Of a DNA stretch of 32,358 bases, positions 15,076 to 21,406 are shown one piece after another. Origin of the DNA: Floccifex porci (GTDB taxonomy: Bacteria; Bacillota_I; Bacilli_A; Erysipelotrichales; Erysipelotrichaceae); the NCBI RefSeq assembly GCF_009696175.1, contig NZ_VUMM01000021.1:1-32358 (forward strand). The letters are read 5' to 3'. Below the pieces are notes generated by a model. It saw nothing but the letters and a program-made list of their open reading frames with translations, had not been told where the DNA came from and did not search any database. How positions within the stretch are numbered: the stretch's first letter is position 1; the number at the start of each line of letters is the position of its first letter. Made by a program: the position numbers and the translations under genes.

Positions 15076-15092
15076 CCCGGTGATTCCCCGGT
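15076..15092 (+). repeat. Putative integrase arm-binding repeats, left side
   Basis: CCCGGT occurs twice with an 11-bp period (15076-15081 and 15087-15092). The surrounding sequence matches 21371-21387 near the right end in the same orientation, including AAGAAA before it and ATAT after it. Paired direct repeats one helical turn apart near both ends are typical of arm sites bound by the N-terminal domain of Tn916-like integrases. Confidence 0.5.
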
Positions 15093-15166
15093 TAAAATAT
15101 CATCTGTTGGAAATACCAAAACATTCATAAAAAGAAATTAGATAACAGAACAAAAGGAGAACAAAA

Positions 15167-16078: not shown

Positions 16079-17284
16079 TCATTCTGGTCTTTCTTCAAAT
16101 ATTTGATATCCTTTTCTAAAAATCAATTCCTTTTGTCTGTTTATGTCATTCCTTGATTTTGGAGTTATCAATTCATACGTGGCATTTATACTCGTTTTAT
16201 CATCTGAAATATCATGAAGTAAAAATACATTGTCTGAATCTTCTTCAATTGAGCCACTCTCTTTTAAATCTTTTTCTGTTGGTCTGGAATTCGTATCGCT
16301 TCTCCTTAATTGAGCCAATGCAAATATAACACAATTCATAGAAGCTTTAATATTTAGCAATTGTTTTGTAATATGATTTATTTTTTCTCTTAAATTTGTA
16401 AATCTTCTTAATGTATCAATATTATTTATGTTATCTAAAAATACAATACAGAAATCATTTCTTGTTTCTTCTGAAATGATTCTTTTTATGGTCTCAATAT
16501 TAGAAGCTTCTCTTGAATCATATAGTTTTATTTTTAAACCGTTTCTTATTCTATAGATTGAATCCGATACTTTATTTTCGTTTTTTTGTTCTTTTATCTG
16601 ATTTTTTGTAAGCCTTGAATCTATCTGAATCAATCTCTGGTAAATGACATCTTTAGGGTTTTCAAGATTAAAATAAAGACACCTATATTTTTTCCCTAGA
16701 TCCAATAGAAGATTTAATGAAAATGCCGTCTTTCCTTTTCCGGTTCTCGCTCCTATTGTGTTTAACGTGTTGAAAGATATCTCAAAATCTTTCATAAATG
16801 ACAAATCAAAAATTAAATGCGATTTTTCGTTTGTGACTAGATTGAAGATTTCTTCTTCTGTTAGTATCTCTCCGGTTCTAGTATTGTGATAATAATTTGG
16901 AATATCTTCAATCATTGAAATAATCTCTTCAAAATCATTTCCTTTTGAATCATAGATAAGTTCTTTCATTTTTCTTTTACGAAATTCATTGTTTATAAAC
17001 TTTATATCGTTTTCAATATTGTGGTCAGAAAAAGCATTATCATTAATACTACATACTATATCTAACATCTTATTATCATTCATAAAAGATTGGAGTATCT
17101 TCTGATAGTCTACTTCATGATATTTTATATACTGGTTTTTCATTTCTTCGAATATAATTCCATACTCTTCTATACTGAAAATATCTTTGTCCAGATAATA
17201 GATATCAAACAATTCTGAATTAAACATGAAAGAAGAAATTAATCTTGATTCTATATTCTGTAAAGGGTTATTCACATTCGGCAT
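16079..17284 (-). CDS. DnaB-like replicative helicase of the element
   Basis: The 401-residue protein has a short DnaB-type N-terminal domain (starting NNPLQNIESRLISSFMFN) and a RecA-fold ATPase. Walker A is GARTGKGKTA (178-187), followed by CLYFNLENPKDVIYQRLI. Later come IVFLDNINN (Walker B strand), FALAQLRR, and the KDLKESGSIEEDSDNVFLLH segment typical of DnaB sensor regions. It would unwind DNA at the element's own origin. Its ATG overlaps the end of the upstream replication gene by 17 bp, with GAGG nine bases upstream. It is last in the operon and is followed by a terminator. Confidence 0.85.
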   Translation of the reverse strand: MPNVNNPLQNIESRLISSFMFNSELFDIYYLDKDIFSIEEYGIIFEEMKNQYIKYHEVDYQKILQSFMNDNKMLDIVCSINDNAFSDHNIENDIKFINNEFRKRKMKELIYDSKGNDFEEIISMIEDIPNYYHNTRTGEILTEEEIFNLVTNEKSHLIFDLSFMKDFEISFNTLNTIGARTGKGKTAFSLNLLLDLGKKYRCLYFNLENPKDVIYQRLIQIDSRLTKNQIKEQKNENKVSDSIYRIRNGLKIKLYDSREASNIETIKRIISEETRNDFCIVFLDNINNIDTLRRFTNLREKINHITKQLLNIKASMNCVIFALAQLRRSDTNSRPTEKDLKESGSIEEDSDNVFLLHDISDDKTSINATYELITPKSRNDINRQKELIFRKGYQIFEERPE

Positions 17285-18128
17285 TTTGCATTGCCTCTAT
17301 TTCTTCTTTTGTTGGATATCTGTCTTCTTTGAAGTGTATACTTTTTTGTTTTTCACTGTTTCTTATAAACAATTCAATAACGCTAAAATGTGAATCATCT
17401 GGATATTTATCCTTATTGCAATGAATATAAAAAGAAACTTCATCTATATATTTATTTATGTCATACTTTGGATATAAACTATTTAATTCGTTTAATTGAG
17501 ATTCTGATATGTATACATTTTTATATCTACCTTTTCCTTTATTATCTATATTATTAGTATTATTAATATCTATTATATTAGATTCTATTCCATTACATTC
17601 TTTTATATTAGATTCTATTATATTATATTCTATTATATTAGACCTCATATGACTATCATTTGATATCATATGACTATCATTTGATATCATATGACTATCA
17701 TTATATGCTATATTTTCTTTATTTAAGAAGTTTGTATTTAATGTTTTATATCTTGTGTATTCTTCTATGCAATATGGGTTAAATATATCTAAATCCTTTA
17801 AATATTCCAATAAGAAATCCTTTAAGTATTCATCTTTAATTTCTCCGTTCTCGATTCTTTCTTTATGATGAGTTTTCCATGAAGCTTTCCTTTTTTCTAA
17901 GCATGAAGAAATATAATTTATTTTATTGTCTCTGATATCTTCAAACATCATAGAACAAATCATTTCTTCTATCTGGTCTAGTTTTGGTATATCTGTATTT
18001 TCTCCTTTAAAATAGTGAATACATGAATCCATTACATTTTTTAACTGTTCTTTATTTAATTTTAATAGCTGCGATAGCATTTTTTCTTTGATTAGCATTC
18101 CACAATATGATTTTTGATTTTTTGACAT
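17268..18128 (-). CDS. DUF6291-like replication organiser with internal repeat tract
   Basis: The 286-residue protein probably opens the element's origin and recruits the helicase encoded next. Residues 1-95 (MLIKEKMLSQLLKLNKEQLKNVMDSCIHYFKGE..., EEMICSMMFEDIRDNKINYISSCLEKRKASW) resemble the DUF6291-type N-terminal domain of phage replication proteins. A low-complexity middle (about 140-190) contains three tandem NDSHMIS units and NIIESNI-like units. The C-terminal part (LYPKYDINKYIDEVSFYI...) is DnaD-like in position only. The repeats are also exact at DNA level, which suggests an origin within the gene. AGGGAG precedes the ATG. Confidence 0.6.
   Translation of the reverse strand: MSKNQKSYCGMLIKEKMLSQLLKLNKEQLKNVMDSCIHYFKGENTDIPKLDQIEEMICSMMFEDIRDNKINYISSCLEKRKASWKTHHKERIENGEIKDEYLKDFLLEYLKDLDIFNPYCIEEYTRYKTLNTNFLNKENIAYNDSHMISNDSHMISNDSHMRSNIIEYNIIESNIKECNGIESNIIDINNTNNIDNKGKGRYKNVYISESQLNELNSLYPKYDINKYIDEVSFYIHCNKDKYPDDSHFSVIELFIRNSEKQKSIHFKEDRYPTKEEIEAMQNAECE
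17570..17640. repeat. AT-rich degenerate repeats within the replication gene
   Basis: Variants of ATATTAGATTCTATT recur at short intervals directly beside the 21-bp repeats. The tract is almost free of G and C and would melt easily, as expected for an origin unwinding element. Confidence 0.45.
17646..17708. repeat. Three tandem 21-bp repeats (iteron-like) inside the replication gene
   Basis: The units 17646-17666 and 17667-17687 are identical, starting CATATGACTATCATTTGATA. The third (17688-17708) matches its first 15 bases and then diverges. Each encodes seven residues of NDSHMIS type. Tandem repeats next to an AT-rich tract inside an initiator gene are the classical layout of lambda-type origins. 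Confidence 0.6.
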
Positions 18129-18141
18129 ATGTACACTCCCT

Positions 18142-18450
18142 CTATATCCAAAAACATTTATCTAGTTTTTCCGATATTTTACGCATTATATGTTGCTTAA
18201 TTAATAGGCATTCAGTGCAAAAAAATACGATTTTTTTTCTTTCGTAATTAAAGCGTTCTTGTAATGTCAAAAATACTTCATCTTCAAATATGCTTAAACC
18301 GAGAGATTCCGATATTTCGTTTCTTCTAGTAATGAATTCTTTTAAAGATTCACTGTTTTTACTATTGTATTCGATATTCTGGTTAAAAATAATTTCATTA
18401 GAATCAAGATCTATAACTGAAACTTTGTATCTCAATATGTTTTTTTTCAT
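18142..18450 (-). CDS. Unknown element protein (102 residues)
   Basis: The product begins MKKNILRYKVSVIDLDSNEI and has an EFITRRNEISESLGLSIFEDEVFLTLQERFNYERKK core. A cysteine pair follows in FFCTEC. I recognise no family. The ATG at 18450 is preferred because AGGAG lies seven bases upstream; the in-frame ATG 18 bp earlier has none. It lies between the HTH gene and the replication organiser, so it is probably an accessory replication or regulatory protein. Confidence 0.6.
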   Translation of the reverse strand: MKKNILRYKVSVIDLDSNEIIFNQNIEYNSKNSESLKEFITRRNEISESLGLSIFEDEVFLTLQERFNYERKKIVFFCTECLLIKQHIMRKISEKLDKCFWI

Positions 18451-18460
18451 TTTGTTACTC

Positions 18461-18727
18461 CTATTCATTATTTTCTAAGTCGTTCAATGCTTCTTTTACA
18501 TGTTCTGGATTAGAAATATCATATCCAGTAAAGCGATCTAAAATACATTCTATTTCTTTACGAGAATAAATATAATTTTTTCCGGTTCTTAATCCCTTTA
18601 ATAGTCCGTATTGTCTCCACATAGTAATCTGGTTTTTATTGCAATGGAAAATATTGCATAAATCATTGGTAGTATAGGTAGGTACTAGATTTACGCTATC
18701 TTTTAACATCTGATTTTCTTTTTTCAT
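18461..18727 (-). CDS. Small HTH protein (MerR/AlpA/excisionase-like)
   Basis: The 88-residue protein contains a winged-helix motif of the MerR/HTH_17 type: TYTTNDLCNIFHCNKNQITMWRQYGLLKGLRTGKNYIYSRKEIECIL. Such proteins in satellites and prophages act as excisionases or as activators like AlpA. No Shine-Dalgarno sequence lies before the ATG. Instead a possible leader ORF ends two bases upstream (TAA at 18732-18730), and a hairpin precedes it, so translation may be coupled. The hairpin loop is complementary to the small RNA at 20138-20197. This makes it the likely regulated target of that RNA. Confidence 0.7.
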   Translation of the reverse strand: MKKENQMLKDSVNLVPTYTTNDLCNIFHCNKNQITMWRQYGLLKGLRTGKNYIYSRKEIECILDRFTGYDISNPEHVKEALNDLENNE

Positions 18728-18729
18728 AA

Positions 18730-18762
18730 TTAGTATCTGGAGAGAATAGAAATGTTGCTCAA
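18730..18762 (-). CDS. Possible 10-residue leader peptide coupled to the HTH gene
   Basis: A TTG at 18762-18760 preceded by AAGGA with a six-base spacer opens the codons for (M)SNISILSRY and stops two bases before the ATG of the HTH gene. Since that gene has no ribosome site of its own, translation through this leader could be needed to start it. The 21-nt complement of the small RNA (18751-18771) covers exactly this ribosome site and start. The peptide is short enough to be chance. Confidence 0.35.
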   Translation of the reverse strand: MSNISILSRY

Positions 18763-18780
18763 AATTATTCCTTTCTCTCC
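18739..18780 (-). promoter_or_regulatory. Leader hairpin and antisense target site of the HTH gene
   Basis: GGAGAGAA (18739-18746) and TTCTCTCC (18773-18780) form a perfect 8-bp stem. The loop (18747-18772) contains a 21-nt stretch (18751-18771) found in small RNA 2 in the orientation that makes the two transcripts complementary. A further CTTTCTC block beside it extends the match with a two-base gap. Confidence 0.65.
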
Positions 18781-18793
18781 GTTTTTATCCTTT

Positions 18794-18973
18794 CTATTCG
18801 TTTGCTAGTTCATCAATGATTTTAAAAATCTTTTGTTTTTCTTCTTCAGAAAACTCTTTTCTAAGTTTTCGTGAGAAATAATTGTCGGTAATGCCTAACC
18901 TATCGGCAATTTGCCATAATCGAATATCTTTTTTATTTGCATATTCTCTTACATCATAATTTGATTTTTTCAT
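18794..18973 (-). CDS. Cro-like small HTH protein
   Basis: The 59-residue product MKKSNYDVREYANKKDIRLW continues with QIADRLGITDNYFSRKLRKEFSEEEKQKIFKIIDELANE, a minimal lambda-repressor-like helix-turn-helix. The start at 18973 is fixed by AAAGGAGG six bases upstream; 15 further in-frame codons lie before it without a ribosome site. It is the first gene of the minus-strand operon, facing the repressor gene, which is the position of str/cro in phage satellites. It would antagonise the repressor at the shared operator region. Confidence 0.75.
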   Translation of the reverse strand: MKKSNYDVREYANKKDIRLWQIADRLGITDNYFSRKLRKEFSEEEKQKIFKIIDELANE

Positions 18974-19197: not shown

Positions 19198-19926
19198 ATG
19201 GAAACTTTAGGAGACAGAATAAAAAAAATTGCAAAGAAAAAAAAATTAACATATAGAGAAATAGCAAAAGACACCAGTTTATCATTGAATACCATAAGCA
19301 AAATAGTAAACAATCAAACCCAAAGTATTTCCAGTGAAACATTAAAGATTTTTTGTGACAAATTAGAAGTTTCATCTGACTATTTACTTGGACTAGATGA
19401 AGAACCGTCAAGAGATTTTGATTCTAAAAAAATTTCTAAAGAATTAGGATTAAGCCTAAAGAGCATACAAAAAATAAAAAGGTTAAAAATAAGAGAAGAA
19501 ATCGCTAATAAAAGAGAACAAGAAAAAAGAGATGATTTAAACAAATCTCCAATAAGAACTATATCCTCTATTTCTGATGACATACATTTACTTGGACACC
19601 CCTTAACTTCTTTAGACAAACTTTTAAAAGATGACTTTATAAATATAGATGAACTATTAATTTCAATTGTTGAATATCTTTATTTTGATAAAGACAGTTT
19701 AAACTTTGGAAATATTGCTATTATTAACACCGACAATTTATTCAAAGATGAAGAAAACGGAACTATTTATATGAATGATAAATGTAATATTGTACGAATG
19801 ACAAGCCCTACTATATATGAGGAATTGTTATTATCTAGAATAGAGCAAAATCTAATTGAAACAAAAGAAATATCTAAATTTATGAAAAAAGAAAGATTAT
19901 ACATAGAAAACACTGAAAACCAATAA
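19198..19926 (+). CDS. Phage-type repressor with XRE helix-turn-helix
   Basis: The 242-residue protein begins METLGDRIKKIAKKKKLTYR and has an HTH_3 domain over residues 1-65 (EIAKDTSLSLNTISKIVNN, ending DYLLGLDEEP). The remainder (about 70-242) shows no S24 peptidase Ser-Lys pair that I can see, so it is probably not cleaved by RecA-type autoproteolysis. In Gram-positive satellites the equivalent Stl repressor is released by binding a helper-phage protein. The start is set by AGAAAGGG eight bases upstream; a longer frame from 19090 encodes an implausible hydrophobic leader. It is followed by the small-RNA region and the integrase. Confidence 0.8.
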   Translation: METLGDRIKKIAKKKKLTYREIAKDTSLSLNTISKIVNNQTQSISSETLKIFCDKLEVSSDYLLGLDEEPSRDFDSKKISKELGLSLKSIQKIKRLKIREEIANKREQEKRDDLNKSPIRTISSISDDIHLLGHPLTSLDKLLKDDFINIDELLISIVEYLYFDKDSLNFGNIAIINTDNLFKDEENGTIYMNDKCNIVRMTSPTIYEELLLSRIEQNLIETKEISKFMKKERLYIENTENQ

Positions 19927-19936
19927 CGATTAAAAC

Positions 19937-20008
19937 AAAAAAATCTTTCACTACTGGCAATAGTGAAAGACGAGTGCAATAACATATTTTACGGACACGT
20001 TTTTGCAC
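19937..20008 (-). ncRNA. Candidate small antisense RNA 1 of the element
   Basis: On the minus strand an extended -10 box (TGC then TATAAT at 20018-20013) is followed by a hairpin GAGTGCAA/TTGCACTC (20010-20003 with 19979-19972) with a 23-nt loop. It ends in a perfect 10-bp terminator stem (19970-19961 with 19953-19944), loop TTGCCAG and seven T. The exact 5' end is uncertain by a few bases and may trim the first stem. It shares layout and terminator loop with small RNA 2, but its loop has no complement that I can find in the window. Confidence 0.55.
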
Positions 20009-20137
20009 TCCTATTATAGCAAATGAAACCAAAGAAAACGCAAGAAATAACACTGAAGTATCTGATTATTATGAGAATTTTTACGCTAAATATGACGATA
20101 TAAACGTATATGAATTATAGCCTTAACGCTGAAATAT

Positions 20138-20197
20138 AAAAAAAATCTCCATACTGGCAATATGGAGAAAGTGGAATAATTTTGAGCAACATTCCAC
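20138..20197 (-). ncRNA. Candidate small antisense RNA 2, complementary to the HTH gene leader
   Basis: On the minus strand TTGATT, a 17-bp spacer and TAAAAT (20207-20202) precede a hairpin GTGGAAT/ATTCCAC (20197-20191 with 20177-20171). This is followed by a terminator stem TCTCCATA/TATGGAGA with loop TTGCCAG and eight T. The first hairpin and loop contain 21 nt identical to plus-strand 18751-18771. The RNA is therefore perfectly complementary to the minus-strand mRNA leader of the small HTH gene, and the two loops can kiss over 13 nt. Confidence 0.65.
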
Positions 20198-20207
20198 CTC
20201 TATTTTA

Positions 20208-20221
20208 TATTTGAGCGTGAA
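20208..20221 (+). repeat. 14-bp repeat over the small RNA 2 promoter
   Basis: TATTTGAGCGTGAA is the exact reverse complement of 14975-14988 near attL. It occupies the spacer between the -35 and -10 of small RNA 2 and lies 37 bp before the integrase ATG, so a protein bound here could affect both. Confidence 0.5.
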
Positions 20222-20257
20222 TAAAATCAAGAAATAAGAAAGTAGAGGAAATGAAAA

Positions 20258-21406
20258 ATGTCAATTACTGAAAGGATTGGAAAAAAAGGCATTACATACG
20301 AATTAGAGTATTATGTGATTGAAAAAGGAGAAAAGAAAAGAAAGACAAAAAACTTTAAGACAAAAAGAGAAGCAGAAGCATTTGGCCGTAAAATGGAAAT
20401 GGAATTTGAAAAAACAAAAGCATTGATAGAAAGTGGAAATTATTTTATTTTTAGTGATAAAACATTTGATGAAGTATGGAATGAATATCTGGAAACGAAA
20501 GACTATGAATTTTCCAACCAGACAAAACTAAGCTATATAAGTATATATTCAAACCATATTAAACCGGTTTTTGGAAATGAAAAAATATCCAGTATAAAAA
20601 AAGGAATGATACAGAAGTTCATGAACGAAAAAAAATCATATTCTAAATCAACGCTGCTCATTCTAAAAAACATATTATCAGATACTTTCAATTATTCTAT
20701 TGATATGGATTATATACAAACATCACCTATGCAAAATATAAAGACAAATTCTAATAAGAGAAAAGAAGCAAATAAAAGAGTTCTTACACATAATGAATTT
20801 ATTTCTTTAACAGAGGCGTTTGAAAATGAAAAAGATATCTTTGATCAATCATGTTTGATTGCAATATATATCGGTTATTATTTAGGATTGAGAAGAAGCG
20901 AAATACTTGCATTGTGTAAAGAAGATTTTGATTTCCAAAACAATGAAGTAAATGTACATAGAAAAGTAGAGTACATTCCAAAAAACGGTAGCATAATTAC
21001 AGAAAGAATGAAAACAAAAAAATCTAAGGCAATTTTACCAGTATGTAAACCATTAAAAGAAAAACTGATTGAATGGTTTAAAATAAATCCTTTTGACCTA
21101 GTATGTACGAATTCTAATGGAGATATATTATATGCATGTTCCGTTAGTTCAAAAATACAGAAGAAAGCAGAAAGCATTGGCATATCAGATTTTACAATGC
21201 ACGCACTACGCCGTTCATTTATTACAAATTTAGTTGTGAATAACGTGGATATCAAAACGGCTACAGAACTTTCAAGACATAGCACTTGCAATATGACATT
21301 AAATATATATGCTCAAACAAATATAGAAAACATGAAAAAGGCAATTCAAAACACATTCAATCAAGAAAATTCCGGTGATTTCCCGGTTCATAATATTTTA
21401 GCATAA
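20258..21406 (+). CDS. int: Tyrosine integrase (Tn916/phage type)
   Basis: The 382-residue recombinase would integrate and excise the element at the 18-bp core. It has an N-terminal arm-binding domain (1-65: KGITYELEYYVIEKGEKKRKTKNFKTKREAEAF), a SAM-like core-binding domain (about 68-165) and a catalytic domain. Catalytic residues are Arg212 (GLRRSE), a lysine near 252-254, His315 and Arg318 (HALR), His341 (SRHST) and Tyr351 (NIYAQ). The ATG follows an AGAGGAA ribosome site. The last codons contain one copy of the CCGGT-type arm repeats, and attR begins 57 bp downstream. Confidence 0.93.
   Translation: MSITERIGKKGITYELEYYVIEKGEKKRKTKNFKTKREAEAFGRKMEMEFEKTKALIESGNYFIFSDKTFDEVWNEYLETKDYEFSNQTKLSYISIYSNHIKPVFGNEKISSIKKGMIQKFMNEKKSYSKSTLLILKNILSDTFNYSIDMDYIQTSPMQNIKTNSNKRKEANKRVLTHNEFISLTEAFENEKDIFDQSCLIAIYIGYYLGLRRSEILALCKEDFDFQNNEVNVHRKVEYIPKNGSIITERMKTKKSKAILPVCKPLKEKLIEWFKINPFDLVCTNSNGDILYACSVSSKIQKKAESIGISDFTMHALRRSFITNLVVNNVDIKTATELSRHSTCNMTLNIYAQTNIENMKKAIQNTFNQENSGDFPVHNILA
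21371..21387 (+). repeat. Putative integrase arm-binding repeats, right side
   Basis: TCCGGT (21371-21376) and CCCGGT (21382-21387) are 11 bp apart, within the 3' end of int. Together with flanking AAGAAA and ATAT they match the left set at 15076-15092 in the same orientation. Confidence 0.5.

Follow-up and report, generated by a model that had tools for sequence, protein, structure and literature searches.

In a 6.3-kb integrated element, the stretch that separates the repressor gene from the integrase gene holds a minus-strand unit, own2 (20138-20201), whose hairpin contains a 21-nt perfect complement of the mRNA leader of the early gene HTH88. The explanation that best accounts for the data as a whole, and which we consider highly likely, is that own2 would specify a displaced, trans-acting antisense RNA repressing the early excision/replication operon of this element. 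The complementarity, its significance, the conservation of the unit and the matched change at both sites were computed in this work. An RNA acting in trans against the early operon had been proposed in an earlier note on this DNA, and at the level of sequence the matched changes found in seven relatives strongly support that proposal.

Gene organization of the element

The element is located in a window of 32,358 nt (the whole stretch of DNA that was analysed) from a low-GC genome, and is flanked by att-like repeats at 15077-15093 (left, CCGGTGATTCCCCGGTT) and 21372-21388 (right, CCGGTGATTTCCCGGTT), which take the form CCGGTGATT(C/T)CCCGGTT and agree at 16/17 positions. Its GC content is 26.8%, compared with ~33% in the surroundings. 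Two genes are read on the plus strand: a CI-like repressor (19198-19926; HTH_3 2e-9, phrog_8 1.7e-16) and a tyrosine integrase (20258-21406; Phage_integrase 7e-19, phrog_1 1e-61). The 330-nt gap between them holds two antisense-like units, own1 and own2, and the integrase start lies 65 nt downstream of the 21-nt own2 core, on the opposite strand.

The leftward genes, all on the minus strand, begin with orf59 (18794-18973; phrog_17740 1.2e-11), which encodes a small HTH protein with 37-51% identity in relatives and is located upstream of the antisense target. It is followed by HTH88 (18461-18727), the first gene 3' of the target, which is kept in relatives and encodes a small MerR/excisionase-like DNA-binding protein (Pfam MerR_1 7.9e-5; phrog_66 excisionase 0.04). 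Next, a 108-aa reading frame without a family match (18142-18468) overlaps the HTH88 stop and fills the position where most relatives carry the antisense target. A probable replication protein (17268-18128; sub-threshold DUF6291) occupies the position of the DnaD/replisome organisers of relatives, and a DnaB-like helicase (16079-17284; Pfam DnaB_C 1.5e-29, phrog_19 1.7e-53) closes the early operon. The earlier note had called the element a satellite; its att repeats do enclose an integrase, a repressor and replication genes, which agrees with this, but no packaging or capsid-interference gene was matched within the element.

The own2 unit and its tandem paralogue

Based on its fold, the terminator scan and its complementarity, own2 is a predicted antisense RNA in which a target-complementary hairpin is followed by an intrinsic terminator. 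On the minus strand the hairpin is formed by GTGGAAT and ATTCCAC, separated by 13 nt, and the terminator corresponds to CTCCATATTGCCAGTATGGAGA-T8. Folding of minus 20138-20200 gave an MFE of -21.6 kcal/mol (z -4.6), and 0/200 shuffles were as stable. The stem described in the earlier note is therein present, but the energy model adds 2 pairs to it, and the predicted loop is of 6 nt in place of 13. The intrinsic terminator that had also been placed here was recovered in the terminator scan, in which 7 terminators were detected in comparison with 1.7 expected. An Rfam scan of the window at gathering score returned one tRNA alone, with no family match for own2.

The promoter that had been assigned to own2 corresponds to a putative sigma-70 sequence, TTGATT-17-TAAAAT (20202-20230, minus strand), with a 9/12 match to the consensus. 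Matches of 9/12 are no commoner in the real sequence than in shuffles, and the own2 promoter is weak by consensus; its position is conserved, however, and its support is comparative, since most aligned units have TATAAT at an equal distance from the hairpin.

The second unit, own1 (19935-20018, minus strand), had gone unmentioned in the earlier note. It comprises a perfect TATAAT, an AGGAG, a hairpin and a terminator (fold z -5.3), and constitutes a tandem paralogue of own2, with an identical terminator loop (TATTGCCAGTA) and a different stem; its hairpin loop (AAAAACGT...AATATGTT) is similar to the loops of relatives. The search for an own1 target retrieved no second genomic site within 3 mismatches, and by duplex energy the best duplex was at background (z +0.8). 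One reading is that own1 is a remnant, its target having been lost once own2 adopted a new target upstream of HTH88; alternatively, own1 is possibly aimed at related incoming elements.

Complementarity of own2 to the orf59-HTH88 leader

The 21-nt own2 core (20173-20193, minus strand), delimited by sequence match and genome search, is a perfect complement of the HTH88 mRNA leader, the target core being located at 18751-18771 in the minus-strand orf59-HTH88 intercistronic mRNA. In agreement with the match originally reported, plus 18751-18771 matches minus 20193-20173 at 21/21 nt, the two sites being 1.4 kb apart. Among inverted repeats this pair ranks first, both within the element and across the window. 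A score of 21 was reached by 0/200 dinucleotide shuffles of the whole element (maximum 20) and, when the 200 nt preceding the integrase gene were compared with the next 4.8 kb, by 0/1000 (maximum 18); the same-sense control for the window region scored 11, versus 21 for the inverted match. Further, a search of the 2.02-Mb genome allowing ≤3 mismatches retrieved two exact copies of the 21-nt core and one 3-mismatch site, with no others.

The target core lies inside an 8-bp leader hairpin (arms ~18738-18780; GGAGAGAA/TTCTCTCC) with a stability of -14.8 kcal/mol (z -3.1), and a CTTTCTC block lengthens the pairing, the duplex reaching about -48 kcal/mol. Both features had been anticipated in the earlier note and were borne out. 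The RNA-RNA interaction prediction of own2 against the leftward transcript gave -48.2 kcal/mol at the target and -23.0 at the runner-up site. The matched part of the 64-nt own2 RNA comprises 21 nt, or ~30 with the extension, and is confined to the first hairpin.

HTH88 has no good Shine-Dalgarno sequence directly ahead of its ATG. Reading of the leader sequence suggests a possible 10-codon ORF at 18730-18762 on the minus strand (TTG AGC AAC ATT TCT ATT CTC TCC AGA TAC TAA), preceded by the Shine-Dalgarno sequence AAAGGA and ending with a stop 2 nt ahead of the HTH88 ATG; its Shine-Dalgarno sequence and start fall within the paired region. This ORF is tentative because it is absent in the related element of genome G138.

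Conserved units and matched targets in related elements

Searches with the integrase, HTH88 and orf59 gathered relatives belonging to the same genus, family and order. For each related integrase, the sequence ahead of the gene was systematically compared with the next 5 kb; elements with the full gene set were retested against 1000 dinucleotide shuffles and against a same-sense control. A conserved unit was found upstream of related integrases, constituted by a TATAAT, an AGGAG start, a hairpin, a terminator and a T-run, and in at least seven relatives (G138, G183, G077, G200, G003, G217 and G095) its hairpin is complementary to a gene junction of the early operon. The net inverted scores were 21 for the window, 25 for G003, 22 for both G077 and G200, 19 for both G183 and G095, and 17 for G138; shuffles reached these pair scores in 0-1/1000 cases, and same-sense controls scored 10-13. 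G069 also has the unit, but its match at the corresponding position is weak and contains gaps (z -1.3).

Compensatory change between the two sites had been put forward in the earlier note as a means of checking the pairing. Both sites differ between the seven elements, yet they match within each; for instance, the G077 loop core ACGTACTCGCAATATG pairs with CATATTGCGAGTGCGT, and the G200 loop core ACGTACGCCAATATG with ACATTGGCGTACGT. Correspondingly, in a matrix of duplex energies each RNA prefers its own target, except for the near-identical G183/G077 and for G069, whose RNA gave -31.1 on the G200 target and -28.1 on its own. In G217 the contig ends just upstream of the unit, and the loop core ATTGGCGTACG was searched genome-wide; this blind prediction retrieved it twice, once in the unit and once on another contig directly 3' of the stop of an HTH88 homologue, with a predicted duplex of -34.3 kcal/mol. 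The same genome-wide loop-core test in G101 found no target.

All targets share a location at a gene junction of the early operon, and their distance to the start codon is variable. In the window and in G138 the target is at the orf59-HTH88 junction, within a hairpin that may form in the interval separating a Shine-Dalgarno-like sequence from the HTH88 start; in G183, G077, G200, G003, G217 and G069 it lies at the HTH88 stop or closely 3' of it, ahead of the next gene or at its start; and in G095 it is at the junction 3' of a dnaB-like gene. Thus, the view of the target as the leader of the HTH gene holds for the window and G138, but most relatives use the junction after HTH88. In several relatives the pairing site is 25 to >100 nt from the next start codon.

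The gene content around these pairs was also inspected. In the G095 locus (L158 6818-8144), head scaffolding and major head protein genes are found a few genes past the target, which suggests a capsid-encoding element or a neighbouring prophage. The G003 locus (L157 6818-8961), with the top-scoring pair, encodes a D5-type primase and a MobC/NikA-like mobilisation protein, and this suggests a mobilizable element. Since cargo differs among unit-bearing elements, the switch appears to be a module of different kinds of integrative elements.

A model of the unit was built from sequence only, because the hairpin arms were left unaligned by MAFFT; the significance of the pairs rests on related elements whose sites are largely different in sequence. 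Across 316 genomes, this model recovered its nine source genomes with E 6e-20 to 4e-12, and other matches at 9e-7 or weaker; the weaker matches that were tested (G133, G197, G015, G206 and G059) had no local target. Searches with the exact pattern ATTGCCAGTA plus T-run in 295 genomes yielded two intergenic copies in this element, and the other matches inspected were devoid of a paired-hairpin unit. The integrase scan of genome contigs returned one distant relative, scans of viral contigs returned no homologue or copy, and the class-wide orf59 search detected two genomes only; the apparent restriction to the order rests on searches of 316 genomes from the order and of 395 taken from the class.

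Neither unit nor pair was found in those orf59 elements in which the repressor gene overlaps or adjoins the integrase gene, and ~25 loci with related integrases and other gene sets had nothing comparable except for repeats in L153 and L077. The L153 pair (G151; score 20) was rejected as an antisense pair because both of its sites are terminators with self-complementary arms, and the 44-nt perfect inverted pair of L077 (G210; 2015-2058/3127-3170) was rejected as the upstream repeat of another integrase, unrelated in sequence to the units. Similar units were found ahead of integrase or probable integrase genes in G101:C6 (L071) and G202:C1 (L061), as well as weaker units, likewise ahead of an integrase or probable integrase gene, in G133:C78 (L200), G197:C1 (L198) and G015:C11 (L197), in all cases with no target detected nearby. 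The class of promoter-hairpin-terminator units may be wider than the pairs found.

These like-shaped units ahead of other integrases, along with the position of own2 immediately ahead of int and on the other strand, are the kind of observation expected if the unit were chiefly cis-acting, with a minus-strand terminator and antisense transcript that insulate or repress the integrase leader, and with the early-operon match being secondary or a relic. We consider this unlikely as the main role, as it leaves unexplained how, in seven other elements, two sites far from each other have changed and still match, and a cis role is compatible with a trans role. A different possibility arises from the proteins of the element, which encodes an integrase, a repressor and two further small proteins that bind DNA; elements of this sort often carry repeated DNA sites close to int, and the shared 21 bp could be a double-stranded protein site (for the repressor, HTH88 or an integrase arm) present twice in inverted orientation, with no RNA pairing involved. 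A DNA site needs no orientation bias, but the long match is inverted, never direct, in 8/8 confident elements; moreover, its int-proximal copy is always within a promoter-hairpin-terminator unit, and its sequence varies freely between elements while the two copies stay matched within each, which leaves this account with a rather small probability. Lastly, single pairs of 17-20 nt do rarely arise in shuffled AT-rich sequence, but a functionless segment copied in inverted orientation by chance or duplication is hardly credible when seven other elements show the arrangement at equivalent positions but in different sequences, one of these cases having been predicted blind.

Proposed mechanism

Under the trans-acting antisense model, we infer the transcription of own2, the repression it exerts, its molecular step and its biological role as follows. 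Own2 would be an RNA of ~60-75 nt produced, probably constitutively, from the repressor-integrase gap; its target, in trans but inside the same element, would be the divergent early operon (orf59, HTH88, replication protein and DnaB helicase). Its first hairpin would pair with the intercistronic hairpin upstream of HTH88, possibly starting from a kissing contact as the earlier note suggested, and forming a duplex of 21 to ~30 bp, and this pairing would lower the expression of HTH88 and also, via polarity or RNase III cleavage, that of the replication genes. In the window, pairing would cover the start of the leader ORF, as CopA does for tap. With sites located 25 to >100 nt from start codons, simple ribosome blocking cannot be general; given these distant targets and the absence of the frame in G138, cleavage by RNase III, or termination at the junction, has at least an equal claim to be the general mechanism.

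Own2 would thereby aid the repressor in silencing the integrated element. Once the element has excised it would also curb replication, and a related element entering the cell would be blocked. Furthermore, if the int leader (plus 20138-20257) were transcribed from upstream, it would be a perfect complement of own2, and could either be repressed by it or act as a sponge.

Significance and relation to known systems

Immunity by antisense RNA is textbook knowledge for P4 and P1 in Gram-negative hosts, and in low-GC mobile elements control is usually credited to repressor proteins. Our comparisons point to a recurring RNA-target pair in low-GC mobile elements, whose sequence changes between elements and yet remains matched. 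This predicts testable exclusion groups among elements, and the conserved promoter-terminator unit provides a handle for finding further cases. A full-text literature search, conducted on open-licence papers, retrieved no description of this arrangement, including an antisense switch in PICI. It is conceivable, although we regard it as somewhat doubtful, that these units represent an undescribed family of displaced antisense RNAs serving as a second, fast-evolving switch in low-GC integrative elements, in which a private RNA-target code gives element-specific immunity or incompatibility and an int-leader sponge couples int with the early operon.

The element resembles Gram-positive PICI in having an integrase, a repressor and a replication module in a small integrated element, and differs from them in that no packaging or capsid-redirecting gene was recognised in its 6.3 kb. 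In the par system of pAD1, a type I toxin-antitoxin of Enterococcus, RNA I and RNA II likewise pair by way of hairpin loops and of matching segments that are displaced from each other; par, however, has a toxin-antitoxin function and convergent overlapping genes, whereas the element of the window is without a toxin.

The P4 CI RNA and the P1/P7 C4 RNA are antisense RNAs through which a prophage or integrated element silences its lytic or replication genes, by premature transcription termination, and may become immune to superinfection, and the RNA predicted here is likewise complementary to the leader of an early replication operon. CI and C4 arise by processing of the very leader transcript under their control, in which they are encoded; unlike them, own2 is at a separate locus ~1.4 kb off, adjoining int, with promoter-like and terminator sequences of its own, in a low-GC genome. 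With CopA/CopT of R1 it shares the design of a hairpin-loop RNA with a terminator directed against a structured leader, and, as in CopA/tap, pairing in the window would cover the Shine-Dalgarno sequence and start of a possible leader ORF, although this ORF is not conserved, being absent in G138. CopA, being encoded on the strand opposite its target, matches it over the full length; in own2, by contrast, the first hairpin alone matches, and does so from a displaced locus. Given this separate locus and partial complementarity, own2 would work like P4 CI, P1 C4 and CopA while being a member of none of these families.
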